Shown here piece after piece: positions 11,517 through 49,921 of a stretch of 64,000 nucleotides of DNA; the first letter of the stretch is position 1; every line of letters starts with the position of its first letter. The stretch lies in NCBI RefSeq assembly GCF_042242105.1, contig NC_092028.1, positions 11,517,338-11,581,337 of the forward strand, read 5' to 3'. This stretch comes from Pempheris klunzingeri (taxonomy: Eukaryota; Chordata; Actinopteri; Acropomatiformes; Pempheridae). The notes beneath the pieces were generated by a model that worked only from the letters and a program-made list of their open reading frames with translations, searched no databases and had not been told where the DNA came from. Position numbers and translations under genes: made by a program.

Positions 11517-12998
11517 TCACGCCTTCTTTCCCTCTCCCTCTGAGATGATGAGCTCCGGTGAGGCTCTTTTGAACCACTCAGACCAGGAGCCGTCATAAAT
11601 GCACACGCCGGGGTGGCCGAGCAGGTGAGCAGCCAGGACGACATGACACGCCGTGACACCGGACCCACAGGTAGCCCACAGCGGTCGCTCCAGGTCCACC
11701 CCCGCCTCTCTGAACAGGCTGGACAGGGCTTCAGTTCCCAGCTCCTTTCCAGAGGCATCCATGAAGGAAGCGAAAGGCATGTTGATGGTTCCGGGGAAAT
11801 GGCCTGGCAGCGTGTCTGCGACGGTGACACAGAGGACAATGACATTGAAAAAAAACAGACTGACTCAAGTTTCACTTACACCTACGAGAGCTTTCAGCCA
11901 AATCTCATGGCTTTCACCAACGTATTCATATCTTCGTATCATGGAGATGGTTTGGCTGTCATCCACGACTGACAACAACAACTCAACACTGCCCATGACA
12001 ATGAACTCTATCTGCAGATAAATGCCACGAGATGAAAAAAATCCCCTGAAGAAAAAGTGAACCTTGGAGTTTTTTTCTTGTCAAACTAGTTCTGCAAGCT
12101 TGACACTGTGCTCGATAAACAGCGAATTAAAAAATACTTCACTAATAGATCGTTGTCTTTTAATGCGTCTTCTCTTAAGCTTTAACCATTTTAACTTTTA
12201 CATTCAATTTTAACATTTCTGTGTGTTGTTTTTATTGTGTTTTATGTCCCCGTAGATAGATAACTATTTCATTTTTCTTTTCTTTTACTACTTTCATGCA
12301 ACAGCCTGCATCTTCTAAACTGTACACTAATCACACATTTCCCTTTATTATAGAACAAACTAAATCCTGACCACCTCTTGTCATTTAGACCCTTTAAAGT
12401 CCTGCTCACCATCTCTGGGCTCCGGCTCAACGCCCCTGAACCTCCCCGCTGGCCTGGCATCCACAACCTGGACCTGCTTGGTGCTGACGTTCTCCAGCAG
12501 GTCCTCGTAGCTCTTCACCCACGGCTGATTCACGGCCGCCGTGAACTCTCTGCGCTCCGGCTTGGAGTACTCAGATGTCACCGGAGCTCCGTCGGCCAGC
12601 CAGTTCTTCAAGCCTCCGTCCAGCACCGACACCAGATTGTGTCCGAACAGCCGGAACATCCACCACACCCGGGGCGCGCTGAACGAGCCGAAGTCGCTGG
12701 TGTCATACACGACTACGTGCGTGTCGTTCCCGATGCCCAGGTCTCCCACGTACTGCGAGAAGTGGCTGGAAGTTGGCAGCATGTGATCCAGCGCAGAGGT
12801 CTTATCGCAGCAGTCGTCTATGTCAAAGAATGAGGAGCCCGGGATGTGCCTCTGCGCAAATTCAGCTCTCGGGTCGCGCTTGGTTTTCGCCAAGTACCAC
12901 GAAGTGTCCAAGATGCGCAGCTTGGGCCCGATGAGGTTGTTTCTGACGGCATCTGCCAGCCACTGACTTGACACCAGAGCCCGGGTCTGCGCCGCCAT
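11517..12998 (-). CDS. mpst: 3-Mercaptopyruvate sulfurtransferase-like, copy A
   Basis: Two exons, 12410-12998 and 11517-11815, split in phase 1 after EPEPRD and encoding 295 aa, the usual MPST/TST length. The enzyme moves sulfur from 3-mercaptopyruvate to its active-site cysteine and on to thioredoxin or other acceptors, giving H2S. It has two rhodanese folds. The N-terminal one is structural (HIPGSSFFDIDDC, RVWWMFRLFGH). The C-terminal one carries the catalytic loop CGSGVTACH. CGSGVT is the MPST form; classical rhodanese (TST) has CRKGVT. The start chosen is the ATG at 12996-12998 (MAAQTRALVSS), which matches family N-termini; in-frame ATGs upstream would only extend it. The tandem neighbour at 13.8-16.1 kb has the same exon split. 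Confidence 0.88.
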
Positions 12999-13805
12999 GA
13001 TGCTGGAAGTACAAGCTCCAGGCGCTAGAGGGAGGCGTTCAGGGACTGAGCTCTGACAGGACATCACGGAGAGTTTAACATGTGGCACACTGGCACACCT
13101 GGACTTTGGATGTTTAAAAAGTACAAGAACAAAACTGAATTTGCACAATCTCACGCTTGCTTTTAATAAGAAGCCATTGTGATCATCATCTTAAATCACA
13201 TTGAAATACAACTCGGTGAATCAATATTATTCATCTATTATGCTTTGGTACGAACAAAAGTGCTGCTTTAAGAAAGGTGACTTACAAATTCTTCAAGGCA
13301 CATCTTTTTTTTTTTTTTTTTTAAAGTGCACATTGACTAAAGCACCAGCAGGCTGTGCTACATAGAGGACAGATACTGGAATAGAAAAATCCTTTTAAAG
13401 ATACAAGATTTTCTTTGAATTATGAGCTTGAAAGCTGCTCAGAATACACACTTATACCCATAAAGTGGTGTCTATGCTGAAGTCATTGCTGGACAGATCT
13501 GGACCGTCTTCATGAGGTCTGCTTTACAGCTAAATCTTGAAATTAATGTTTCAACATTCAGAGAAAATTGTAACCATTAATCAGACATAAATAGAAGTGA
13601 GTTGAACGCTCAGACCTACTTCTATGCCGCCAGCAATTATTATCTAAAGCCTGGTTTCACATTCAAATATAGCTTATGTGTTAAATCCACAGTCAAATCT
13701 GCTTTTCTAATCATTTCTGTTCATTCTAGTGTAGATTTAAAGTTCATATCTGTGCTCTTTTCTGAGGTTGGAATATTAAGTTCCACCCATGATGAATCAG
13801 TCATA

Positions 13806-16085
13806 TTAAGTGATTTTTTTCATGCTAGCTTTTGAGACGATGTGCTCTGGCGGGGCCTTGGTGAACCACTCGTACCAAGATCCGTCGTACACGGACGCCT
13901 CGGGGGCGCCGCACAGGTGGGCAGCCAGCACCATGTGACAGGCGGTCACTCCGGAGCCACAGGATCCACAGATCGGCCTGTTCAGGTCCACTTGTGACTT
14001 CTCGAAGAACCTCCTCAGCTCCTCCGTGGAGAGCATCATGCCCTCGCCATCAACGAAGTTGAAGAAAGGCATGCACTTGGAGCCGGGGATGTGGCCCGAC
14101 CGGACACCTGTGGGACAGCGTTGAGTGAGTTTACCTGTTTGCACACAGCACAGTAAAGGTGCACTCAAACCATGTGACTGGTTACTTTCGATCAGAGAAT
14201 TTTGTAAAACCCCAATAAAGTATCTTTTGTAAGGGATTGTACAGCACCCTTCCATTGCCTTTGGGCAGCCAGCATTTTCTGTGAAAGCCACAACTCAGTG
14301 GAGCGTCACCAGGAGACATAAAGAGCGATCAAGAGCTTTTAAGTCAAACTGAAAAAGCTGCTCAGCTCTGTGACCATTAACCTTGTATTTTATTTGTTTT
14401 ATCTTTAACTATCTAACACACACACGTGATGTTGACATGGTGTGTGTGATGTAATTTCTGTTATGAGCTTCTTCTTTTTTTTCTAGTTTGTTTAGTCGCT
14501 GTGTGTGCAGATGAAAATCAGTCCACGGGGAACTCTGGTGCGAGGCATTGGATGCTAACATTAATGTTTAATACTGCACATGGTTCCTTACAAATAAGAT
14601 GAAATAAATAAAAATACGCAGCCCTGAAAACATATTTTCTCTTACTCTGTGTGATGGTCGCCAACGTGAACACAGTGAACATTTTCTGTAGGATATTTGT
14701 GTTTTCATCTGGGTTCTTCTCACTGCTTTCACTTGTAAAACCGTGAGGTCACAAATTCCTGTGCACCAATCAGGATTCAGCAATAGTCCATTTAAACCGT
14801 CACGGTCATTGCAGGGCAGTTTGCTTATGTTGCCATCAGTTTTTGACATCTCAGGATGTGATTGCCCAACATTTAATTTTGGCTGTTACTTACAGATACT
14901 TAGCACGTGACACCAAGTTTTCAGGGGGCTTTAAGTTGAAATCTGGATTCAGATCATGGTAGAGCGCTTGTAAACTACACTGACTACTTAAGTTTGAACA
15001 AAATAAACGAAATGATCCAAGTAACCAGCCTGCAGTAAATACTGACTTTGAGTCTCTTTGGGGGTTTGTGAGCACTGCCCCTCTGTGCTACTGCATGAAC
15101 ACAAGATAAGAGTTTACTATAAAGCATCTCCTTTTTTTTCCTGATGCAGCAAACTTACTAAGTTGCCTTATTTTATCCACAAAACCCATGCAAGTAATTT
15201 GGATTCAACTAATGAGTCATTTATGCAGGCGTCCTCATTCTCTCCATTGCCCACAAGAAAATGTGAAAATGAAAAACTTAACTTTGAAATCACTTGTAAA
15301 CCCCATAAACAATCTCAATAATTATGGATTATGGATATAATGGTTGCATAATAAAGCCATGAGATCCAGCTTCTACTTTCCCATAAGCTCACAAAACATC
15401 TCTTAAAAAATAATGAATTCAGGAGTTTTAATTGCTTGAGAGTAAATGTTGAATCTAAATAAGACCTACCCTCTCTTGGCTCTGGTTCATCTCCACAGAA
15501 CCTCTCGTACGGCCTCACATCCACCACCTGGAAGCGCTGTGCTTCAATGTTCCCTCTGATGTCCTCATATGACTTCACCCAGCAGCTGTTCTTCTTGGTG
15601 ACGGTGAAGCGAGCCGCCTCGGGCCTGCTGTGGGCCCCTGACACCGGGTGGCCCTCCCTCACCCAGTTCCTGAACCCCCCGTCCAGCACCGACACCCTAG
15701 GGTGTCCAAACAACCGGAACATCCACCAAACCCTGGTGCAGGTAAACGCCCCGAAGTCGCTGGCGTCGTAGACCACCACATGGCTGTCGTTCCCGACGCC
15801 CAGACCTCCGACGTAATCTGCGAAGAAGCGCTCAGTGGGGAGCATGTGATCAAACTCAGAGCTTCTGTCCGAGCACTCGTCGATGTCGAAGAAAGACGCT
15901 CCCGGGATGTGAGACCGTGCAAACTCCTTCTTGCCGTCTCGCTTCATCATGGGCAGGTACCAGGACGTGTCCAGGACGCGCAGACGCGTTCCCACCAGAT
16001 TGCGTTTGATCATGTTTGCGAGCCATTTCGCAGAGACGAGCGCCTGGGTTTGCGCTCCCATGTTTCCAGGCTGGACTCTGCTCAT
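13806..16085 (-). CDS. mpst: 3-Mercaptopyruvate sulfurtransferase-like, copy B
   Basis: Two exons, 15470-16085 and 13806-14107, with the same phase-1 split as copy A (after EPEPRE). The first ATG (16085) gives MSRVQPGNMGAQ. The second (16061, MGAQTQALVSAKW) lines up with the copy A start and gives 297 aa, and is at least as likely. Both rhodanese folds are present, with HIPGASFFDIDECSDR and RVWWMFRLFGH in the first and catalytic CGSGVTACH in the second. It ends SMKKIT with TAA. The MPST-type loop again argues against a true TST. A teleost annotation may still call one of the pair tst because human TST and MPST are neighbours. The intron is longer here (1.36 kb against 0.59 kb). Same-strand tandem order shows local duplication. 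Confidence 0.87.
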
Positions 16086-18949: not shown

Positions 18950-19495
18950 GGGAGCTTATGATCAGGGCATGCGTGTTATTCCTTTCATCCTAGGAATTAC
19001 AGTATATGTATATCTCTGATGTCATCATGTTAATGTACGCTTCATAGGACTGTGATGGCACTCCATGTTGCCTGGGAGCCTGCAGGGCCCTTCATTAAAC
19101 CCCACAGTCTCCCCCAGGCCCAGGAGAAGATCAGCAGCTTTGGCTTTGCACCACCCAGTACCCTCCACATATGCCTAGAGAAGGGAGAGAGTAGAAGGGA
19201 ACTCCTAGATGGTCCATCTCAGTCAGCCAAACAGCACCACCGCCCCTCTCCTTTGTGTGTCAGCTCTGGGCAGTCAGCAGACCGAGAATTATGGGAATGA
19301 CCGGGTCTAGAGGGACTCTTGGGAGTGGGGTTTCTTCCATCCAGCTTGCTCAGCATGACTGTGGCGTGTGTTAGGGTCCCAGCAGTGGATCATATCAGAG
19401 TGTTTCTTCAACGCAAACCTGGTAAGATGAGCCACGTATCCCTCTTCTGCGGGCGTGGCATTGTCCATGTCACCCAACAGCTCACTCTCTCTGTT
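18950..19495 (-). pseudogene. Inverted, broken copy of the fusion enzyme's 3' end
   Basis: Read on the minus strand, this matches the plus-strand gene at about 26985-27650. It begins at the ELLGDMDNA segment and ends about 25 bases past the parent's stop codon. Stretches are identical over about 45 bases: 19198-19242 is the complement of the parent's DHLGVPF region. Parts of the parent are missing (the region coding DCSEWVQDG to RVLIEK, and most of PEQSYKWYINMRQVKP to WLLQ), and the frame is lost, so it cannot encode a synthetase core. The copied area lies within one parent exon, so a retrocopy and a DNA-level inverted duplication cannot be told apart. No poly(A) tail was seen, which favours DNA-level duplication. 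Confidence 0.85.
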
Positions 19496-22400
19496 GTTCC
19501 AGCGTACTTTGGAGCTGCAGGACACGACTCACTTATCACGCCACTTAATTACTTATTTTGTGTTAAGCCTTAGTGATTGTGATATTACGTTTCAACATAA
19601 AAAATAATAAATGCAGAAATCATTTTTGAATTCCCCAAACACTGTGCTATGTCAGGCTTATTAAGGACAAAGTGTCTTTGTGATTCTTGGTGGTGCTATG
19701 CTGAAGTAGAGGACATCTCTCTATGCCCATGCCCCGTGTGCAATATGTATCAAAAGACATCTCAACACTGCATCACTGTCTGCATCTCTGCGATGGACTT
19801 TTGTCTCTCCCCCGTCTCTTTCTCACCAGTCAGTGAATTACACTTAAGAGGCCATAACACAGGTCTCTTTGTGTAATGATGAGGTGAACACGAATGGAAT
19901 GCATCCAGACTTGTGTGAGAAACCGGCTTGGACTATATTGACAGTAGCAATAATTGAGCTATGTAATATGTTTCTCATGCTTTTTACTATAGCCTTACAA
20001 AGGACAAAGTGACCTGACCCTGAAGCAAAACAAGTTAAATTAAATTAAAGTAAATACCTAACGTGTATATTTGACTGGTATAATTATGTATTTCCTTGTC
20101 ATTTGTAACATTTAATGTGGTGAGATATTTCCAAATTATTGGATTCTGGCCTCTCAAATATGGTGATGGATGAAATGCCACCTCTCCAATATGGTGGCTT
20201 CCCTTCCTCAGATATGCATATGCATATCTGTGTATATATGCCATAGCTTGATGTATATGCCATAGCTTTAGTTTTAGATTAAATCATATCTTCAAAATTA
20301 TTGAATTTCTATTTAATTTTTATAATTATAGCTTTAGATCAGTGCATTTTTCAGTTTGCCCAAGCCTTGATATGATCCTCTCCATAAACATAATGTCTCC
20401 TGTCGGATAAGAATGAACGAGAATGAGAAAAGGAGGGTGAGTTATTTGGTTTTGGAGAAGTTAGACTGAAACAAAAGTGCAATGGTATCATAAACGCATG
20501 AACAAATGGGGAAGAGAGAGGCAGGGAGAGACTGTGCAATTTGGAGAGGGAGAGGGGGGAGGCGAGACACTGAATTGCTTAATTGGAGTCACTGCTTGTA
20601 TATTATGGACAAACCCTTGTTTTTGTAGTCCGACCAAGTTTTCCTCCCACTGACTGCTCTGCCATCCTGCCAACTGGTCAGATCTTAGAGACGTTTCCAG
20701 ACTGAGGTAAGTTGGTTCTCCTGAAATAACAGACGGTGTGAAAAATGTCATGAAATGATAGATTTAGAATAACTTACTCCTATGTGAAGTATATGTATAC
20801 TAGCTCAGTGATAAGTGTGAGTCATGCTGTGTTTTCTGCAGTAACATTCTTGGTATGTATGTCTATATGTATGTGTGTATGTATGTATGTTAGGGAGATT
20901 TCTCGTCTGGCAAATAATTTTAAAAGTTATCAATACAAATTATACATTATTATTGCTTGTTTAATTGGACAGTGATTATTTTTCATACAAGAAAAAGTTC
21001 CGTTTTCTGGAAGTTAATTGAGACCAGAGTGAAATCTGAGACATATTAATGTCGCATATTTTCACATTTTGAACAGTGCAGTCTTTTCACTGTGCTGTTA
21101 ACTCATGATGATCCACAGACCTCACCATGAACACTTTCTATGGAGACTATTACTTTGATGGGAAGTTTTCTCAAATGTAAATAGTTGATGTTGGCTTATC
21201 GTAAGTATTTGGGATTTTGTTTTTGGAAAGAAATGTTGCAGTAAATGTTTATGCAATTTGGATGAACTGACCCTTTAAAGTAAGAGAATTAGAAAATAGA
21301 GAAAAGGTTTTTAAAAAAAATGTAATGAGGTTTCTGTGCTTTGCTCATTTTGCCTGTTTTGACAGAATTAGTAAAAATCATTTCAATATCCATAAAATCT
21401 GACAGAATTTAAGTCAAAAGTCTCTGAGAGTTACAATGAAAAATGTGTATTATGTAATACATTGAAGTGGTATTTACTGGTAGTGCTGCTGTGTATTCAC
21501 TAATTGAGCTATTGGAATCACAAGGCCAGTATCCTTGCTAAACTTGAGTCCATCGTCAGATAGAGCACAGACAGCAAGCATTGTGTGGGTGACTTGAACT
21601 GATGAGACAAATCAGGAGAAATCTAATTTCCCAGCACGGCGAGGGAGGCATTCCCTTGACAACCAGCAACTAAACATCCCAAGCTTTAGTTTTGCACAGA
21701 GGGATGGTGAAAAGAGTGTAACTGCTTTCACGTGTGAGCAGATGAGCTTAGTTACCAGTCATTAGCATGATCTGTATAGTGCAGGGAGTATTGTCTCACA
21801 TGGAAGTAAAATCTGGATGCATTCCATTCATGTTTATCACATTTATGCACAAAGGGATCTGTGTTAGACTCAGCTGCCCCTTAACTATAATTCAGTTAAT
21901 TGACTTGGTTCCACTAAGGTGAAAATGGTTGGACATCACGTGAGGGAAGCATTGAGGGCTCTGTGAGGGTTTATGTAGGCACAGGGATGGTTTGAGCTAA
22001 ATGCTGTCTGCATGTTAGCATGCTCACAATGACTGTGTTGACCATCTTAACATTTGCTAATTAGCGCTAAACACAAAGCATAGCTGAGTTTGATGGGAGT
22101 GACGTCAGATTTGCAGTGATTTGATCAAAGTATTTGACCAATTGATACTGCTTGATGAAAAGGTCGTTAAATTTGTTACACTTCATCTGGAGGGAGACAT
22201 GCATCTGTGAAAAAAATGTCATTGCCAAATGTCAGAGTATCATCAAAGTCATTAGGACTTGTATTTCAGTCCCACTATAGTTGTGGGTCGACCAATAAAA
22301 TAGAAACAAAGGATAAGTAACCTCAATGGCTCTCATATCCTATACCTGTCCTCTGTACAGTTACATATATGTACACACATGTTTTCTTCTGTGTTCTTCA

Positions 22401-22529: not shown

Positions 22530-25500
22530 ATGACACTTCTCGACTACCCTGTTCCAGAGTTGGATGTTACCTTGCAAGAAGTGAGCCGTGTCCTTCAGCT
22601 CACTTTAAGTCCTGATCTTTACCCTGAGTTCAAAAGTACACTGGAACAGCAGAGAGAGCTCCTCCAAGAGGCACAGCAAAAATTAGCAGCCATCGCTGTT
22701 GGCCAAGAGAATTGGGTGACGGAGCAGTTCAAGAGAGGTTTGCTGTCTTGTGCTGACTCCCTGCCCACCTCCACAGCCCTCCCTGTTGTTCTTCTTCCTT
22801 CCCAAGCAAAGCAATGTACCCAGCTGGGGAGGGCAGCCGCTCTGCTCTGGGCAGCAGCTAAGCTGTACAGTGAGCCCATGTTACTGGAGGGCAATGCGCA
22901 AATGGAGCACACACAGCAGTCTGAAGTATTCGCTGCCAGCCGAATTCCTGGCCGGAGTCAAGATGAGATAAAGGTGAGATTACTGGCAGTGCACAACTGA
23001 TAAGATGTATCAAAGCATACTGAGAAGTTAGAGGTTTAATTTTTCAATACGTCAGGTCTCTCCTATTTCTGATCTATAACTCTATTATCTCCAGGTCTAC
23101 CCAGATAGCCTCCATGCCATCATCACCTGTGTTGGAGGAGTGTTTCCTATTGACATACTGTGGCATCCCAGTACTGGTGGGCCAGTTTCTGCTCGATCGT
23201 TCAATGACATCTACAACCAGCTGGCTCAGGTGATGGATCAACCGTGTGCAGGAAAACAGAATGATCCCTCTGTTATTTGCAACCTCTCAGCTCTGGAGCG
23301 CAAAACCTGGGCTGCCACCAGGGAAGAGATCCTAGAGCAAGGAGGAGCAGCAGCGGCATCACTGGGGCTGATGGAGAGTGCAGTGCTGACACTCTGTCTG
23401 GAAGACTGCAATGCGCCCTCTGAACTGGCTGATATCCTCAATGTAGTGAGGCTGGGAGGAGGAGGAGGAGACAATCCATGCCTGAGATACTATGACAAGG
23501 TATTGGATAGAATCTGAATAGAAATTTTAAACCAAGCTGAGATCAGATTCCTCACCTGTTTCATACACATTTCATACACACAGACTGTTGAACTTTGTAT
23601 TGAATCATAATCTTGGCATAAAAAGATAGATTTTGATATGTGCAAAAATTTTACAAATTTAAGCGCAAGTTTGAACCATCAGCATGTTATTAGTGCTATT
23701 AGTGCTATCATCTTTGTTTTTCTGTTATTGACAGGTGGTGAACCTGGTGGTGTTCAAGGATAGCACAGCTGGAATAGTGTTTGAGCACAGTGCTGTGGAT
23801 GGAATGGTGGCTGGCCTTGTGACAGAACGTGTATACCATCTCTCTGAGACTGCTGACTTAAACTTTGTCCATACTGACACAGAAAATGTGAATGGGTCTG
23901 TTTTGGTAAACAATGTTAATTCTGTTTGCCCAACTTCCCTAACATTCCCCCTGCAAGACATAGATACTCCCAAACTGAGGCCTGACTTAAAAGCAACACA
24001 TCCAGTTCTCACGTTTGATGTGCCATCCTATCCTGATGTCTTTTCTACTCTCAGAGGGCAGAGAGGCCTCTATGATGCTTGGATCAACTTCTCTTTGCAG
24101 CTTTCCCTGAGGCAGACTCTTGGGGAGTCTGCTGCCTATCACATGCTTGTCACACCGACTCATATGCGGCACTACAAACATGGCCGTTGTGATCCTACAT
24201 ACTCACTCACCATGCATTCTCGTAAGTTTATAGGTGCCTTGGCATCTTGCATTGGTCCAGATAACAAAATCCAATACACTGCTGACCTCCTTCACTTGTT
24301 CCATGTTGCATTTCTGGCACATAAGAGCCTCATCAAAAACACCAAAAATGGTCAAGGAGTTGGTCCCCACCTCGCTGCCCTGCGTCGATCTTTACCACTT
24401 GATAATCCACTGAGGAAGTTCCTGGACCCCTTTGGATGTCCATCTGTGTATCTCACAGGTACAGATCTGATGGGTGAAGGTGTGGAATGCGGAGTAGGAA
24501 ATGTTTATGCCCAAGATCAGCTGGCTGTAACCTACCTTGGGAAGAGAGACGGGGTTCGCATTGTGCTCAATGGGAAGGGGAGCTTTGTTCTGGCACTGGA
24601 GAAGCTTCAAGAAAGCCTGAAGAAAAACCTGAAGTTAGTAATGCTTCTAGCTGTTAGATATGCCATTGCAAGCCAAATGGGAGCCTTGGACTGTCTACTT
24701 CAACAGGGTCAAAGACAGAAAATGAATGGAGAGACATGTTACTGTCCAGAGAGCCCAAACAATGGCAAGGCTGCTGTTGACTCCACCTCTAGCACAGACT
24801 ACACTCTAGTAATCCATGGTGGCGCTGGAGAGGAGATGATGTTGAACACGGAAGTCATTGGTGCTATCGAATTTGCTCTACAGACAGCCCTAACTGTTGG
24901 ATCCCAAGTGCTTCAGGAAGGTGGCAGCAGTCTGGAAGCAGTTCAGAAGTCAGTAGAAGCTCTGGAGGACTGTTTCCTCTTCAATGCAGGTAAAGGCTCA
25001 GTATTCAACAAAGATGGCAAAAATGAAATGGAGGCAACCATTGTAGATGGCAATGCGAGGACGTCAGGATCTGTTGCTTGTGTGCAAAGTGTGAAGAACC
25101 CAATAAAAGCTGCAAGGTGTGTCATGGAGAAAAGCTCACATGCACTCATTGTGGGAGATGGCGCTGAGGAGTTTTTGCAAGGGTTGGAGGAGAAAGAGAA
25201 GCCTGTTGGGCCTGAGTATTTTTACACTGATATACGTCACAGAGAGTTGACTGCAAAGCTCAGGGATGGAAATAGCTCAAAAAACAATCACCCTCAGACA
25301 GTCGGAGCTGTGGCCTTGGATCGTTGGCACGAGTTGTCTGCTGCATCCTCCACAGGTGGGTTAGCAGGAAAACTGAAAGGGCGAGTCGGGGATACAGCAG
25401 TTGTAGGGGCAGGAATATATGCTGATGACAAGGTAGCTATTACCTGCTCTGGAGATGGAGATGTGTTTCTACGGCACACAGTTGCACAGAAAGTAGCCAG

Positions 25501-27637
25501 TCTTTACCATCACAAAGGCTATAGCCTCAGGCAGGCATGTAGAGAAGTGATGACTGAAAATCTGAATGGTGTCTGTGCAGGAATCATTGCCGTCGACATT
25601 AAAGGTGATGCCATCATTGAAACAAATGCTGGAGTGATGTTTGTCGCTTCAATGATAAGTGGCATTTCACGAGTAGAGGTTCTGAGGCCCCTAAAGAGCT
25701 TCTCTGATGTAATCTGGGAAACAGAGGAGCTGGTTGCCTACCTTGATCCCAACCCCTGGATCCCTGGGTCAACCATTCTGACGAGAAAAACTCTAAGTGG
25801 GGCAAGGAGCATCTTCCACCTGGCTACACCTGATTTTGTGGCTATGCTACAAGGAGCAAGAGCAGTGTCAAGCTTGCTATGTGAGCACTTGGGAGTGCAG
25901 CGATGTGCCTTGGTTTTCAATCCAAGCCCTGACCAGCCAGCACAAATCAGACTGCTCCCACTTCATGGCCTAGAGTCGAAGTGGCAGCCCCATCTTGCTG
26001 CTGAAGAGGAATTCCACACTTATGATCCTGGGTACTGCACCTCAAAAAGTGGCCCACGCTGGGATGATGAGGCACTGACCCAGGTTCAAGCCAAAATTAG
26101 AAGTGGACTGCCAACACCTAATGCACCCTCCTGCTTTGACTTTTTTGGAGATGCTTCCAATGATAACCTGTTCAGTCGTATTGTACGGGGCGAACAGCAG
26201 CAGTGGAGAGTGTGGGAAGACAGTGAGCATGTTGCCTTCCTAACACCATACCCAAACACTCCTGGACTAACTGTTGTGGTGCCACGCAAACCACTGTCCA
26301 GTGACATCTTCAAACTGGAGGAATCTGACTACAATGCGCTCATCTTTGCTGTTTATAAAGTTGCCAAACTACTGGAACAAGGGATGAGAGCTCCAGGTGT
26401 TGCACTGATCTTTGAGGGTTTTGAGATTGACTATGCCCATGCCAAGCTGATCCCTCTGCTACCTTCACCAGATGGCACTAAGCCTGCTGAAATGCAACGG
26501 GAATGCTTCCAAAACTACCCTGGATATGTGTCATCGCTTAGTGGCCCAACTGCTGACCCTGACGCCCTCAAGGAGATCCACTTAAAAATTACAAAGTGCA
26601 AACCTCCTCATTCATGGGAAGACCCCCTGTCTCACTCCACAGTTGCCATCAAGAGCCAGTGGTATCGCAACCTGTTCCAGATTCAAAACACTCTTTTCCA
26701 CAGCACAGTGGAATATTTCCACAGTTCCTGCCAGTATTCCTATGCTCTAACCCCTCTCACCACGGACACCATCTCCTCGCCAATGGGTTTGGGATCTGAC
26801 TCAGAGCCAGTTTCTGTTAACCTGCTGGGTCGGGACATCTACCTGGCTGACTCAATGCAGTTTGTACTTGAATACTTCCTTCGCTTCCAGGACAACCTGC
26901 CAGGGACGTACTACATATCTCCCAGCTTTAGAGGGGAAGATCCTGATGCCACACACTTGAACCAGTTCTACCATGTGGAGTGTGAGCTGTTGGGTGACAT
27001 GGACAATGCCATGTCCATAGCAGAGGGATACGTGGCTCATCTTACCAGGTCTATGCTGAAGAAACACTCGGATATAATCCTCAACACAGCTGGGACCCTA
27101 ACACATGTCACAGCCATGCTGAGCAAGCTAGATGGAAAAACCCCACTCCCAAGAGTCCCTCTAGACCAGGCCATTCCCATGATGCCATCTACTGACTGCT
27201 CAGAGTGGGTGCAAGATGGCCAGCCACAGTTTGGCAGAAAGCTAACACGCAAGGGAGAGCGGGTATTGATAGAGAAATATGGTGGTGCTGTTTGGCTGAC
27301 TGAGATGGACCATCTAGGAGTTCCCTTCTACCAGGCATATGTGGAGGGCACTGGGCGATGCAAAGCCAAAGCTGCTGATCTTCTCCTGGGGCTGGGGGAG
27401 ACCGTTGGTCTTGGCGAACGCCATTCCACCCCTGAGATGGTACAAGAGGCCCTCAAGCACCATGGAGTGCCAGAGCAGTCCTACAAATGGTACATTAATA
27501 TGCGGCAGGTGAAACCACTCCTCACCAGTGGATGGGGCATGGGGACAGAGCGCTACTTGTGTTGGCTGCTCCAGCATGATGACATCAGAGATATACATAT
27601 CATTCCTAGGATGAAAGGAATGACATACATGCCCTGA
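22530..27637 (+). CDS. Carnitine acyltransferase / asparaginase / HIT / AsxRS fusion enzyme
   Basis: Three coding exons (22530-22973, 23095-23499, 23735-27637), both introns phase 0, give 1583 aa. Start chosen: ATG in 'gacaaaatgaca', just after a good acceptor at 22510. Residues 1-610 resemble carnitine/choline acyltransferases: PVPELDVTLQEV at the N-terminus, catalytic His301 in FEHSAVDG, YKHGRCD at 430-436, and TGT (524-526) where the family has STS. Residues 640-925 form an Ntn-type isoaspartyl peptidase/asparaginase: IHGGAG, NAGKGSVF, NPIKAAR and nucleophile Thr805 in QTVGAVALD. Residues 936-1193 hold two HIT-like modules; the second keeps the nucleophile-position His1185 in YAHAKLIP. Residues 1253-1583 form a class II Asp/Asn-tRNA synthetase core: motif 2 FRGED with FYHVECEL, and motif 3 GWGMGTERY with IRDIHIIPR. 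No OB-fold anticodon domain is visible. I know of no characterised protein with this order. A role on an Asp/Asn-derived acyl metabolite is inference. Confidence 0.85.
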
Positions 27638-30608: not shown

Positions 30609-32912
<2,304 letters not shown>

Positions 32913-46100: not shown

Positions 46101-47065
46101 TTCATGTTGCAATATTTCTAAAAATAGAGGATAGAACACTTGCAGTTTTCTGGTCACCAGTCCTAAATATCTAATTACGACACGACCTTTTGCATAACAA
46201 CTTAAATGTGATAATAGAACTCAATGAGCTAAACTATTTCATGACTAATATCCAATTTATCTAAATGACCTGGATGAAGAAACAAAGTTTCGTCAAGTCC
46301 ATTCTGTCACTGTCTCCGTGCAGATCATTCAGTCAGAGAGCCACGAATGTGAGAAAGGCCCTGCGTCTCTACAACCTTCTCATGATGAAACGCAACGAAA
46401 GCCTGCGGGACGCCATCGCAGAGTTCAGCTCCATCTCCTGCAGCCTGGACAAGATGCAGAAGAAGACCAAAACCGTCAACGTTGCTGGAGGCACCACAGG
46501 CGCTGTAGGAGGGGTGACAGCAGTGTTGGGTATCGCCTTGGCCCCTATGACCATGGGGGCCTCGCTGATTGCCACAGCAGTTGGTGCTGGCATGGTGGCG
46601 ACAGCTGGGGGAATAGGCATCCAAGCTGCCAAGGCCAACAAGACGATTGCGAATAGGATGACAGTTGAGAAACTAGTGTGCGATTATAAGGCAAATATTG
46701 TTGACCTGGAACATTGTCTGGACTTCATCCTCTCTGGTATGAACGAGCTGCGAAGGCACGACATTGCCAGGTTGCAGAGGGCAGGAGCCCAGCCCGACGC
46801 TATGAAGGTGGCACATCTGTCACGGTCTGTGTTTCTGGACAACATCTCTGGAGCACGCACAGGTGGCCTGTCGTCTGAGAGACTGCTTCAGGCTTTTGCT
46901 AAGGAGATGGATCAGTACTTCACAGAAAATGAAGGCCAGAAGCTGAAGAAGTCGAATAAGAGCAAATTTTCTGGTAGAGTTCGCCTGCTGGCTTTAAATC
47001 TGCAGGATGAACTCGATCACCTGAATTGTATGTGGGAAATGTTCAGTAAAATTGAGTGTGTGTGA
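43198..47065 (+). CDS. Apolipoprotein L-like protein with proline-rich N-terminus
   Basis: Ten exons (43198-43269, 43376-43522, 43615-43683, 44034-44138, 44491-44577, 45221-45349, 45467-45532, 45682-45721, 45998-46052, 46324-47065) join in frame to 503 aa. Residues 25-220 are polar and proline-rich, with SH3-ligand-like runs such as RPVPRPRSK, RPRPVCPPPRP, PPPPRPPRPS and TRPPPPKFHPPPPPP. Six of the nine introns are phase 0, so whole proline cassettes can be skipped. Residues 257-503 are the ApoL domain: an amphipathic start, a Gly/Ala-rich hydrophobic hairpin at about 307-360 (GGTTGAVGGVTAVLGIALAP), then helices ending CMWEMFSKIECV. ApoL proteins are channel-like lipid-associated proteins of membranes. 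Human APOL genes are also on chromosome 22. No signal peptide is visible, so an intracellular role is likely. An acceptor at 43189-43190 shows there is an upstream non-coding exon. Confidence 0.85.
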
Positions 47066-47128
47066 GAGAGATCTGTTTCAGGAGGTTGTGATTGGTGTAA
47101 TTAAATGCCTTAATTACCACTTATATTT

Positions 47129-47167
47129 AAATAAACATTTTATATTTGTAATGTGTGAGTTAATAAA
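47129..47167 (+). terminator. Poly(A) signals of the ApoL-like gene
   Basis: AATAAA at 47129-47134 and again at 47162-47167, 64 and 97 bases past the stop codon. The gene has a very short 3' UTR. Confidence 0.7.
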
Positions 47168-47474
47168 GCCAGTATTTAAGGCCAGTTCAAGATCGGAGTT
47201 CTGCTACCATTCATGACTGTTATAAATAAAACCACTGAAATCAATCTCACACTCGCTGCGCTTTAAAGGAGTCTTGTATTGATCTAGTTCAGCACCGTGA
47301 TTACTTTTCTGGATGACAGAGGCGATAATCACAGGCGGAGTGATTCTGCGGAAGGATACCTCCGGTCCTCGCTGCAGCTCTTTAACAACACTCCGCCTCA
47401 GCCGGCGCCATTTTCCTTCCTGAGGAGCATCAAACCAAGAAGCAGCATTGTTGACCATCGCTCTATTGGTCGAA

Positions 47475-47486
47475 ATGGCAGTGTAA
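47475..47486 (+). promoter_or_regulatory. atf4: atf4 uORF1 (M-A-V-stop)
   Basis: ATG GCA GTG TAA in the atf4 leader. Mammalian ATF4 uORF1 is also three codons plus stop. It is followed 76 bases later in the mRNA by the overlapping uORF2. In the known delayed-reinitiation model, ribosomes finish uORF1 and rescan. With abundant eIF2-GTP they restart at the inhibitory uORF2; under eIF2 phosphorylation they bypass it and reach the ATF4 start. Confidence 0.85.
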
Positions 47487-47562
47487 AGTGTGCCGCCACC
47501 CAGCAGCAGCCAACAAAACAGTGCATCCAACCAGTGCACTGAGCCACTTCTAATTCAGAAAC

Positions 47563-48521
47563 ATGTCGTAAGTATTATTTTTAGTTATTTAAGTGACTGT
47601 TAAATAACAAATGCAGGCGGGTGTTGTTGGCCGACAGCTGTCTGGCCTGTGATATCCACGTGCCTCCGCAGCCTGGCGGTACCGCGAGACTTAAGATTGA
47701 AAGACTATATTAAATAAAATAAAATGCTCAATTTAGTCCAACTATTGTCATGAATCATTTTTTATTTTTAACGTCGAATAGCTTGATACAATTAATTAAA
47801 AACAGCACTAGCTGTAGAGATGACGTAACTCAGGACATAAATATGAAATACCGTGTTTATGGTTGGCTTAAATGTCACTAATGATCGGTAGGGACGCGTT
47901 GCCACCTTTTTATATAAGTCTAAAGTGTTATCACGACGGTCTTTTGAGTGTCGACGTGGCAGTAGGAAAATGGTTCGTTTCCTCCTTTTGTGTCAAAATG
48001 GCGACTTCATGTGGGCGGATGGGGACAAAAGTGTGGCTGTTTATTATAGCGAGGCTGCATGACGCACTACGTGACGCTTGTTTGGAGACGTGCTGACGTC
48101 ATAGTCACAAGACTGGTGGAAACACGTGTTTTGCAGCAGGTGCACTGCAGTGATGGGGGCAGTGTTGCGCCTCAATGTGCTGTGCCTTCTCAAATCACAA
48201 TCATAATTTTCGATGCGCTTTCTTGGGCTGTTAAACGTTAAAATCCTCAAATCTTTCAATAAGCTTTTAACTATTTTTACAATATTTATGCTCAGATGTT
48301 CACAACAAATGGCTTATTCTTTCTTCATCCTCAGGTCCTACACGGAAACCCTCACCACTGCTGCATTCGACAGCATAAAAGAGTTCGAAACCCTCTCGGC
48401 ATCGTCACGTACCCCATTCGTGACCAACAACAGCCACTATGACCATGATGATGACAAACTCACAGTTTGGCCTGGAAGACATGGAGGCCCTTCTCTTGGG
48501 ACCTTCCTCTCCCATGGTTGA
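47563..48521 (+). promoter_or_regulatory. atf4: atf4 uORF2, overlapping and split by an intron
   Basis: A 63-codon frame. Its first five bases (ATGTC) end exon 1 at 47567, and it resumes at 48335 in exon 2. It starts MSSYTETLTTAAFDS and stops with TGA at 48519-48521. It overlaps the atf4 coding frame by 83 bases in another frame, so its translation excludes atf4 initiation. Mammalian uORF2 has 59 codons and the same kind of overlap. The junction (GTAAGT donor after ATGTC) means the uORF2 start codon is within five bases of the splice site. Confidence 0.87.
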
Positions 48522-49921
48522 CGGCATGGGCTTCCTATCTTTTCACCCTGACCAAGAAGAACAACAGGAAGGAGGAGGAACCTCACTGGTGGGGGACACT
48601 TCACCTGTGTCGCCCCTCACCTCCTCATCACTGTCTTCTTCCTCCTCTCCTCCTCCCTTCTACTCTCCTCCTCCTTCGCCGCCGGCCGTCCTCCTTGGGG
48701 ACAAATCCGGGACCGAGTGTGACCTGCTCTCCCTCCCCTGGTTGGGCCACCCTGATCAGCTGAGACAGGCAGTCTCAGATGACAGCAAAGGTAGTGACTG
48801 TGAAATAACATTGTACTCATGATTAGAAAGTAAACTCTTAATAACATTAAATATTAAGACATACACAACCAGTGTCAGTGTAATGGAGGAAAAGCCAAGC
48901 TCATTAATAACAAAATGCCTGATTTGCATCCACAGAGGATATGTTAGGTGACCTGGACTGGATGGCTGAGCAGGTGGATCTGAGCGAGTTTGACCTGGAC
49001 TCTCTGATCGGCTCCTGCAGTCCTACTCAAGAGTCCCCCAGTTCTCCAGAAGAACTCCTAGCCTCCCTTGATTGCCCCATGGAGCTCGACTCCCTCCCAC
49101 TGCCCACTGTCTCAACTTCTGCCCTCTCAATTCCTCCCTCTGCTTCTCCTCCAAGTTCTCCTCCCCCTACTCCTCCTGCCGTCTGTTCAGAGCTGCTCCC
49201 CATCACAGTGGATGAGCCAGAATCCCACATTGATGATCAGGATGTTCCCACCCCTCTCCTGTGTGTCCCAGAGCCACAAGAGGAGCTGGAAATCAAATCT
49301 GAGCCTGTTTCTCCAGACCCCTCCTCCCCCTCAGTTGATTCTCCCTCCTCCCCAGCCTACACCCTGGACCTGGGGAGTGAAGTGGATGTGTTGGAGAGTG
49401 ACGTGAAGCCAGTGATGGCGTCCGTCGTCCCTCAGGTCCCGAGGCTCGTACTCTCCCTTTCACCAACCCGCATCGTCCTCGTGCTGGCCCCCAAAAACGA
49501 AGTCGCCATCACCACCACGACCGTAACCACCACAACAGAGGTCGTTCATTCCTCCCCACCACCAAGGTCCTCCAGAAGCAGACCGTACCCTGAGCCTTCA
49601 TATATAGCTAGTCCACCCTCCACTAGTGTCAAAGTCAAGTCCCTCCGGGGTGAAGGTGCAGGTGAAAAGGCAGCTTTGAAAGCACCAAAGGCCAAGAAAC
49701 TGAAGAAGATGGAGCAGAATAAGACGGCTGCCACCCGTTACAGGCAGAAGAAGAAAATTGAGCAGGAGTCGCTTACTGATGAGCATACGCGGCTGGAGAG
49801 GAAGAACATGGAGCTGAAGGAGAAGGCTGAATCCATGGCCAGGGAGATCGAGTACCTCAAAGAGCTGATGGACGAGGTCCGCCTGGCCAGGGCCAGGAAA
49901 AGTCTTAGTGCTGACTCCTAG
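48439..49921 (+). CDS. atf4: Activating transcription factor 4 (bZIP)
   Basis: Coding exons 48439-48790 and 48936-49921 give 445 aa. ATF4 is the main effector of the integrated stress response; it dimerises with C/EBP family members and drives amino-acid synthesis and transport genes. The DLDWMAEQVDLSEFDLDSL block in the middle is the conserved activation segment of ATF4. The C-terminus (about 367-437) is the bZIP: KKLKKMEQNKTAATRYRQKK basic region, then Leu heptads through EIEYLKELMDEV. The centre is unusually Ser/Pro-rich. Start: the first ATG of MTMMMTNSQF, preceded by the two uORFs. The beta-TrCP degron DSGxxxS of human ATF4 was not found. This could mean the divergent teleost paralogue (atf4b type); the a/b assignment is not decided here. 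Confidence 0.95.

Follow-up and report, generated by a model that had tools for sequence, protein, structure and literature searches.

What could a single polypeptide accomplish that joins an acyltransferase, an asparaginase, a pair of HIT folds and the catalytic core of an asparaginyl-tRNA synthetase (AsnRS)? The question is raised by a gene of the fish Pempheris klunzingeri, which lies at positions 22530 to 27637 of the 64,000-nucleotide stretch analysed here (contig NC_092028.1, positions 11,517,338 to 11,581,337 of the forward strand, in a genome of 646 Mb; hereafter the window). The gene is si:ch211-256m1.8, also called saiyan, and for its product we propose, at about an even chance of being right, one multifunctional enzyme of aspartyl/asparaginyl-nucleotide metabolism that makes or remodels an acylated aspartyl/asparaginyl-adenosine monophosphate (AMP) phosphoramidate. 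Computation supplies the domains, the conserved catalytic residues, the relatedness of the core to AgnA, the agrocin 84 synthetase, and a HIT signature of the MccH type.

Gene structure and identity

Three exons, joined across GT..AG introns of 121 and 235 bases, give 1583 codons, and the joined product is identical, letter for letter, to an annotated Pempheris klunzingeri protein. From N to C terminus it comprises a carnitine-type acyltransferase, Asparaginase_2, two HIT folds and an AsnRS-like core (Table 1); Pfam places Carn_acyltransf on all three exons, and exon 3 adds Asparaginase_2, HIT and tRNA-synt_2. Exons, annotated protein and Pfam, which assigns all four part families, thus agree with the sequence-only reading, an earlier one that had proposed a four-part fusion in one frame. 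Fish orthologues, a scorpion protein and a bacterial open frame were all found. Because the order of parts recurs in the scorpion and in that one bacterial frame, an artefact in which two genes are read as one is ruled out. Where the same reading erred was in taking the gene to be without a known counterpart. Fish entries of the same architecture bear the si:ch211-256m1.8 name, and saiyan is described in the cited passages of PMC12918100 as an iridophore marker with 'no previous associated function', at 4.7 transcripts per million (TPM) in white clownfish skin and 0 TPM in orange. In other work si:ch211-256m1.8 was placed by inference beside MIEF1 (PMC5638112), and that neighbour is present here too, with a MID51-like C-terminal domain at 32073-32909. 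A literature search on asparaginase and iridophores found no link between these two subjects.

Both N-terminal parts score above their Pfam gathering scores, Carn_acyltransf with 40.7, 48.5 and 65.3 bits on exons 1 to 3 (gathering score 22.3) and Asparaginase_2 with 260.4 bits (gathering score 27) and its Thr nucleophile kept. Residues were counted in alignments of 175 'fish' and 110 'other' rows, a sorting of our own by name and identity in which at least one row (P0201) is wrongly placed and many Logan and metagenome rows are nameless, and of 71 bacterial cores. The latter come from a genome scan with 130 loci bearing a relative; the best 80 were kept, and from these the Candidatus Parabeggiatoa locus (L013), six loci without a called core frame and two more by length were set aside. 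Thr805 is Thr in all 163 fish-labelled and all 10 other rows with a residue there. All 71 bacterial rows have both the motif 2 arginine, R1349, and the motif 3 arginine, R1556. Of the 175 fish-labelled rows, 174 have R1349 and 173 have R1556; among the other rows R1349 is present in 108 of 110, and R1556 in 107 of the 108 with a residue at its position. Together with His301, which we take from its family to be the catalytic His of the acyltransferase, these residues are kept as the sequence-only reading had claimed.

Table 1. Features of the saiyan gene, in window coordinates
Feature	Position	Strand	Residues	Evidence or remark
Coding exon 1, start of carnitine-type acyltransferase	22530..22973	+	1-148	GT donor; Pfam Carn_acyltransf 1.6e-10
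Coding exon 2, acyltransferase	23095..23499	+	149-283	Pfam Carn_acyltransf 6.9e-13
Coding exon 3 and stop	23735..27637	+	284-1583	
His301, acyltransferase H-x3-D-G motif	23786..23788	+	301	H in 153/153 fish-labelled and 4/4 other rows with residue
Asparaginase_2 (N-terminal nucleophile (Ntn) isoaspartyl peptidase/asparaginase)	24791..25660	+	~636-925	Pfam 2.6e-77; 2zak E 7e-56
Thr805, predicted nucleophile and self-cleavage site	25298..25300	+	805	Aligned with beta-chain start of solved isoaspartyl peptidases
HIT1, degenerate HIT fold	25703..26137	+	~940-1084	AlphaFold and VIA-align
HIT2, MccH-type HIT (E1177, H1185, K1187)	26138..26605	+	~1085-1240	Pfam HIT 6e-6
AsnRS/AgnA-like class II core (motif 2 R1349, motif 3 R1556)	26618..27634	+	~1245-1583	Without anticodon-binding domain

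The C-terminal core

Among the nearest precedents for the core is AgnA of plasmid pAgK84, which is homologous to it, has the same extent and shares 38% identity over 352 aligned positions. AgnA is described as an AsnRS-type catalytic core that lacks the anticodon domain (PMC4392301), and the fish core is alike in this respect: Pfam at E<=1 detects no N-terminal OB-fold anticodon domain on exon 3, where HIT2 directly precedes the core. AgnA differs in being a stand-alone bacterial protein, clustered with a methyltransferase and an MccF-like gene and free of fused HIT, asparaginase or acyltransferase parts. AsnRS itself is 24% identical in the alignment and differs by the anticodon-binding domain, and because none was found in the fish protein, we think a working tRNA synthetase unlikely. 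R1349, E1351, H1357, E1365, E1367, R1512 and R1556 are all present in each of the 71 aligned bacterial cores.

Among NCBIfam models the core is best matched by those named 'asparagine synthetase A' (3e-58 and 1.2e-53), with AsnRS behind (9.6e-33), although it stays below the curated cut-offs of these AsnRS-like models (PRK06462.1-3, -5), scoring 197.6 bits against 322 and 182.4 against 389. The archaeal AS-AR (3p8t) gives only a weak sequence match (1.6e-5). SlgZ of streptolydigin is a further likeness by description, since it is called AsnRS-like and is used with the methyltransferase SlgM in making a tetramic acid whose precursor is 3-methylaspartate (PMC5357945).

The HIT pair

Folded alone with AlphaFold and compared by structure, the HIT pair resembles GalT and ADP-glucose phosphorylase in having two HIT-fold halves, but shares only 9-12% identity with them. 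Their active-site motif is presumably of another kind. HIT1 is 26% identical to the bacterial HIT protein of locus L014 (E 9e-11 for that single comparison), and HIT2 is 41% identical over 148 amino acids to a bacterial HIT bearing E-x5-HxHxK. The HIT2 pattern is shown by 209 of the 285 fish and other proteins, as E-x5-(Y/H)-x-H-x-K in 208 and with the Lys in all 209; its first His position holds Tyr in 189, His in 19 and Pro in 1. At the position of HinT His39, none of 173 counted proteins has His. By the signature and the missing HinT His, HIT2 resembles the MccH clade, from which it departs by its usual Tyr, its tandem arrangement with a degenerate HIT and its fusion to other parts. For MccH the signature Lys is reported as essential, and the substrate is an aspartamide-adenylate whose phosphorus-nitrogen (P-N) bond is cut (PMC7157772).

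Bacterial neighbourhoods of the core

If the core belongs to aspartyl-nucleotide chemistry, what stands beside its bacterial relatives is of interest. Neighbouring frames at the 80 loci were called crudely and clustered, and each family took its name from a single scanned member, with similarity to AgnC5 and Arad_15003 as a second criterion for Peptidase_S66 and the methyltransferase. Peptidase_S66 is found at 48 loci, a class I methyltransferase at 29, ATP-grasp at 17, and MFS and P450 at 11 each. AgnC5, annotated as MccF-like, matches the S66 family at all 48 of its loci, and the methyltransferase adjoining AgnA has relatives at 30 loci, 29 of them of one family; S66 and a methyltransferase (f2 or f8) occur together at 27 loci and one or the other at 58. 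Since these AgnC5 and methyltransferase families are shared with the agrocin cluster, we judge the neighbours enriched, a judgement made without a random-locus control. MccF is described as cutting the carboxamide bond of aspartamide-AMP (PMC7157772). A threshold of E<=1e-20 is passed by 22 of 72,556 plasmid records, and the 20 listed include pAgK84, where agnA, annotated 'Agrocin84-synthetase', lies beside a methyltransferase with the 'MccF-like' agnC5 in the same cluster.

A beta-aspartyl or asparaginase partner recurs unfused, because the IadA beta-aspartyl peptidase family occurs at 4 of the 80 loci, at three of them (L061, L084, L085) directly downstream of the core, and Asparaginase_2, L013 aside, at one (L041). 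The IadA family rests on one scanned member, which scores 371 bits with TIGR01975 against a cut-off of 331. HIT genes, again besides L013, stand at two loci: that of L014 carries the exact E-x5-HxHxK and lies 6.6 kb from the core on the same contig and strand, and that of L056 is without the MccH signature. The three Clostridia loci L061, L084 and L085 combine the core with IadA and GARS-like families, and with a Peptidase_S51 family in L061 and L084; as predicted by Pfam and NCBIfam on L061, this is an aspartyl-centred cluster. In L041 (Legionella sp.), L073 and L091 (Vibrio, Photobacterium) the core lies near a ThiF-family gene, named by Pfam in L041 and by the same frame family elsewhere.

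Distribution of the fusion

The idea that the fusion is a peculiarity of fish had to be given up, as the same parts are found in a scorpion and in Parabeggiatoa. A search with residues 630-1583 matched 226 proteins, and among the best 120 the 86 that bear a species name are all from fish. A search with the bacterial form (best 120 of 205 matches) adds a gar protein (P0249), one of the scorpion Centruroides sculpturatus (P0284, 1521 aa) and the proteins P0260 and P0278; for P0249 and P0260 Pfam lists no HIT, yet the HIT2 motif is present in both. Judged by sequence, all four parts are present in gar, scorpion and sulfur bacterium, and three in a fungus. The latter is a lichen fungus (P0153) with the order Asparaginase_2-HIT-core; other fungi and further proteins have pieces of the fusion or the core alone, among the best 120 of 1802 matches and with Pfam run on 10 proteins.

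On the Candidatus Parabeggiatoa contig a frame of 1470 residues, open upstream to the contig edge, has the same Pfam families and is 40% identical to the fish protein over 1536 alignment columns; P0241 (1607 aa, 99% identical) is a longer version of it. A foreign contig in this genome is thought unlikely because a 21-base repeat in its flank (<=2 mismatches) recurs 182 times through the 8.8 Mb genome, in 92 and 90 copies, and the reversed control gives 0. Of 274 genomes of the same class, drawn from a larger group and surveyed for best candidates only, 88 gave a match, and outside the Parabeggiatoa genome none of the matches spans more than one part. In a midpoint-rooted tree of 111 cores, with AgnA and AsnRS outside the sample, the 71 bacterial stand-alone cores form one side of a branch (100/100), and the Parabeggiatoa core groups with eukaryotic and other cores in an unresolved fork with P0260, Lingula, animals and fungi. 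The whole fusion is likely to have moved between domains of life, in a direction that is not settled.

Proposed function

The substrates, the order of steps, the direction of the HIT reaction and the product are ones that we infer, as follows. The core would use ATP, and no tRNA, to activate the carboxyl group of Asp, Asn or a closely related compound, as AsnA does and as is thought for AgnA and SlgZ, giving an Asp- or Asn-adenylate. By chemistry like that of MccB, an activated Asn would be able to cyclise to a succinimide. The HIT pair, with its GalT-like two-half fold and single MccH-type site, would handle the P-N bond of an AMP-aspartamide, either breaking it or making it through an AMP-His1185 intermediate that hands AMP to the nitrogen. 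The Ntn asparaginase would hydrolyse or transfer a beta-aspartyl amide, and the N-terminal acyltransferase would move an acyl group from coenzyme A (CoA) to the product, in this scheme an acylated aspartamide- or aminosuccinimide-AMP phosphoramidate. The earlier guess of an enzyme for an Asp/Asn-acyl conjugate fits the parts and survives in outline, but the nucleotide has to be added to it: the nearest precedents found, which are AgnA, the AsnRS-like SlgZ and the MccH HIT hydrolases in place of the ErdS cited in the sequence-only reading, suggest by analogy a conjugate with AMP and a P-N bond.

Several observations weigh against this proposal. The core falls below the NCBIfam cut-off of every model, and SlgZ, whose description mentions no fusion (PMC5357945), is compared by that description and not by sequence. 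The first His of the MccH signature is replaced by Tyr in the HIT2 of 189 of 209 proteins; His1185, which the sequence-only reading had counted as kept, does lie in the signature, but non-fish rows with a residue there have it in only 57 of 69 cases, and K1187 in 58 of 71, core-only or cut rows aligning badly in this region. Bacterial cores rarely sit with HIT (2 of 80) or Asparaginase_2 (1 of 80). A long-chain acyl donor is not favoured, because profiles of choline and carnitine acetyltransferases (1e-41, 3e-41) score ahead of the octanoyl- (9e-38) and palmitoyl- (9e-32) types. MccH and MccF are immunity hydrolases, and by analogy the role of the HIT pair may be confined to degrading compounds of this kind. 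We found no biochemistry on the saiyan protein, and the cited passages do not state aspartyl-nucleotide or P-N chemistry for it, no search having been aimed at that question.

The chief rival, which we consider unlikely, is an enzyme that detoxifies microbial aminoacyl-nucleotide toxins or confers self-immunity to them, and whose core would bind the toxin while HIT2 cuts the P-N bond, the asparaginase cuts the amide and the acyltransferase caps the amine. The immunity proteins MccH, MccF and the acetyltransferase MccE, which act against aspartamide-adenylate (PMC7157772), are models for just such steps; HIT2 has a signature of the MccH kind, and a patchy distribution over fish, a scorpion, fungi and one bacterium is what a transferable defence gene might show. 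AgnA, however, is annotated as the synthetase of its cluster, the core motif residues, which each of the 71 bacterial rows and nearly all of the other rows keep, are more than a binder needs, and iridophores would be an odd place for detoxification. Equally improbable to us is an asparagine or beta-aspartyl amide enzyme that involves no P-N compound. Its core would make the beta-amide of Asp like AsnA, which activates the beta-carboxyl of Asp (PMC5370406), the asparaginase would reverse this, the HIT pair would clear AMP by-products and the acyltransferase would acylate the amide; the 'asparagine synthetase A' names and the IadA family at 4 of 80 loci speak for it, but it leaves the specialised MccH-type HIT and the agrocin-like bacterial setting unexplained. 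The expression of saiyan, an iridophore marker found in white and not in orange clownfish skin (PMC12918100), would accord with a purine or crystal enzyme that shapes the guanine crystal or reflecting organelle and has only ancestral kinship with antibiotics. We give this little credence, since fungi, the sulfur bacterium and metagenome proteins keep the core, and the catalytic hints point to aspartyl and AMP substrates.

Further copies and neighbouring genes

Left of saiyan, at 18965-19489 on the minus strand, lies a broken, inverted part of the gene, with core pieces 38-42% identical and several stops, which is probably a decayed duplicate; beside it, a short weak match at 19485-19532 resembles residues 18-43 (E 3.8). 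Elsewhere (L009 7598-9041, that is C3:4818597-4820040) a separate tandem-HIT gene of at least two exons is 57-59% identical to the HIT pair and has the same EIDYAHAKL motif, with no core found on the fetched stretches; it is perhaps a remnant of a second copy. P0123 and P0124 (Silurus, Micropterus), called asparagine--tRNA ligase-like, are 70-73% identical to HIT2-core and classed from this as further paralogues. P0207 of Lampetra planeri, which combines a rhodanese with a stretch 89% identical to part of the Pempheris core, is probably either contamination from a fish or a gene model that runs two genes together. Three consecutive rhodanese-like frames, likely tst/mpst genes, stand left of saiyan in the window (12384-16085, minus strand), and beyond MIEF1 (46265-49918, plus strand) there are an apolipoprotein L-like frame and a bZIP frame, perhaps atf4.

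Dinogunellins and implications

Is there a compound in fish that such an enzyme might make? A tentative and rather doubtful candidate, in our estimation, is a lipid of the dinogunellin type, a group of toxic adenosine P-N phospholipids that occur in eel blood and in the eggs of some fish. Dinogunellins contain an aspartate-derived aminosuccinimide. The string 'succinimid' is absent from PMC6429109. Published descriptions of dinogunellins give them as phospholipids of adenosine that carry fatty acid residues and a P-N bond, obtained from eel blood and from ripe eggs of several fish, among them northern blenny and cabezon, with a role given as not known (PMC6429109, PMC7463754). They are a metabolite and not a gene, but an adenosine P-N phospholipid in fish is the kind of product that the saiyan parts would predict. 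In their synthesis the acyltransferase would place fatty acids on the ribose, the core would activate Asn or convert it to a succinimide, the HIT pair would link this to AMP through the P-N bond and the asparaginase would trim. The cited passages of PMC6429109 and PMC7463754 name no dinogunellin enzyme, and no dedicated literature search on the biosynthesis was made. The northern blenny, Dinogunellus grigorjewi, belongs to the Stichaeidae, as does Cebidichthys violaceus, which has P0032, and the eel Anguilla rostrata has a saiyan-type protein (P0243). This occurrence fits but does not discriminate, because the gene occurs across teleosts and dinogunellins are reported from few species.

If saiyan does encode an enzyme of aspartyl/asparaginyl-nucleotide metabolism, a pigment-cell gene already in the literature would acquire a chemical function that the cited passages do not give it, and vertebrates would be shown to carry, in one chain, a relative of the machinery for the nucleotide antibiotics agrocin and microcin C. 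Were the link to dinogunellins true as well, one nucleotide-lipid pathway with kinship to agrocin and microcin C would be common to ray-finned fish, a scorpion, fungi and a sulfur bacterium, iridophores would use that same pathway too, and saiyan would become a candidate gene for the origin of toxic fish roe.

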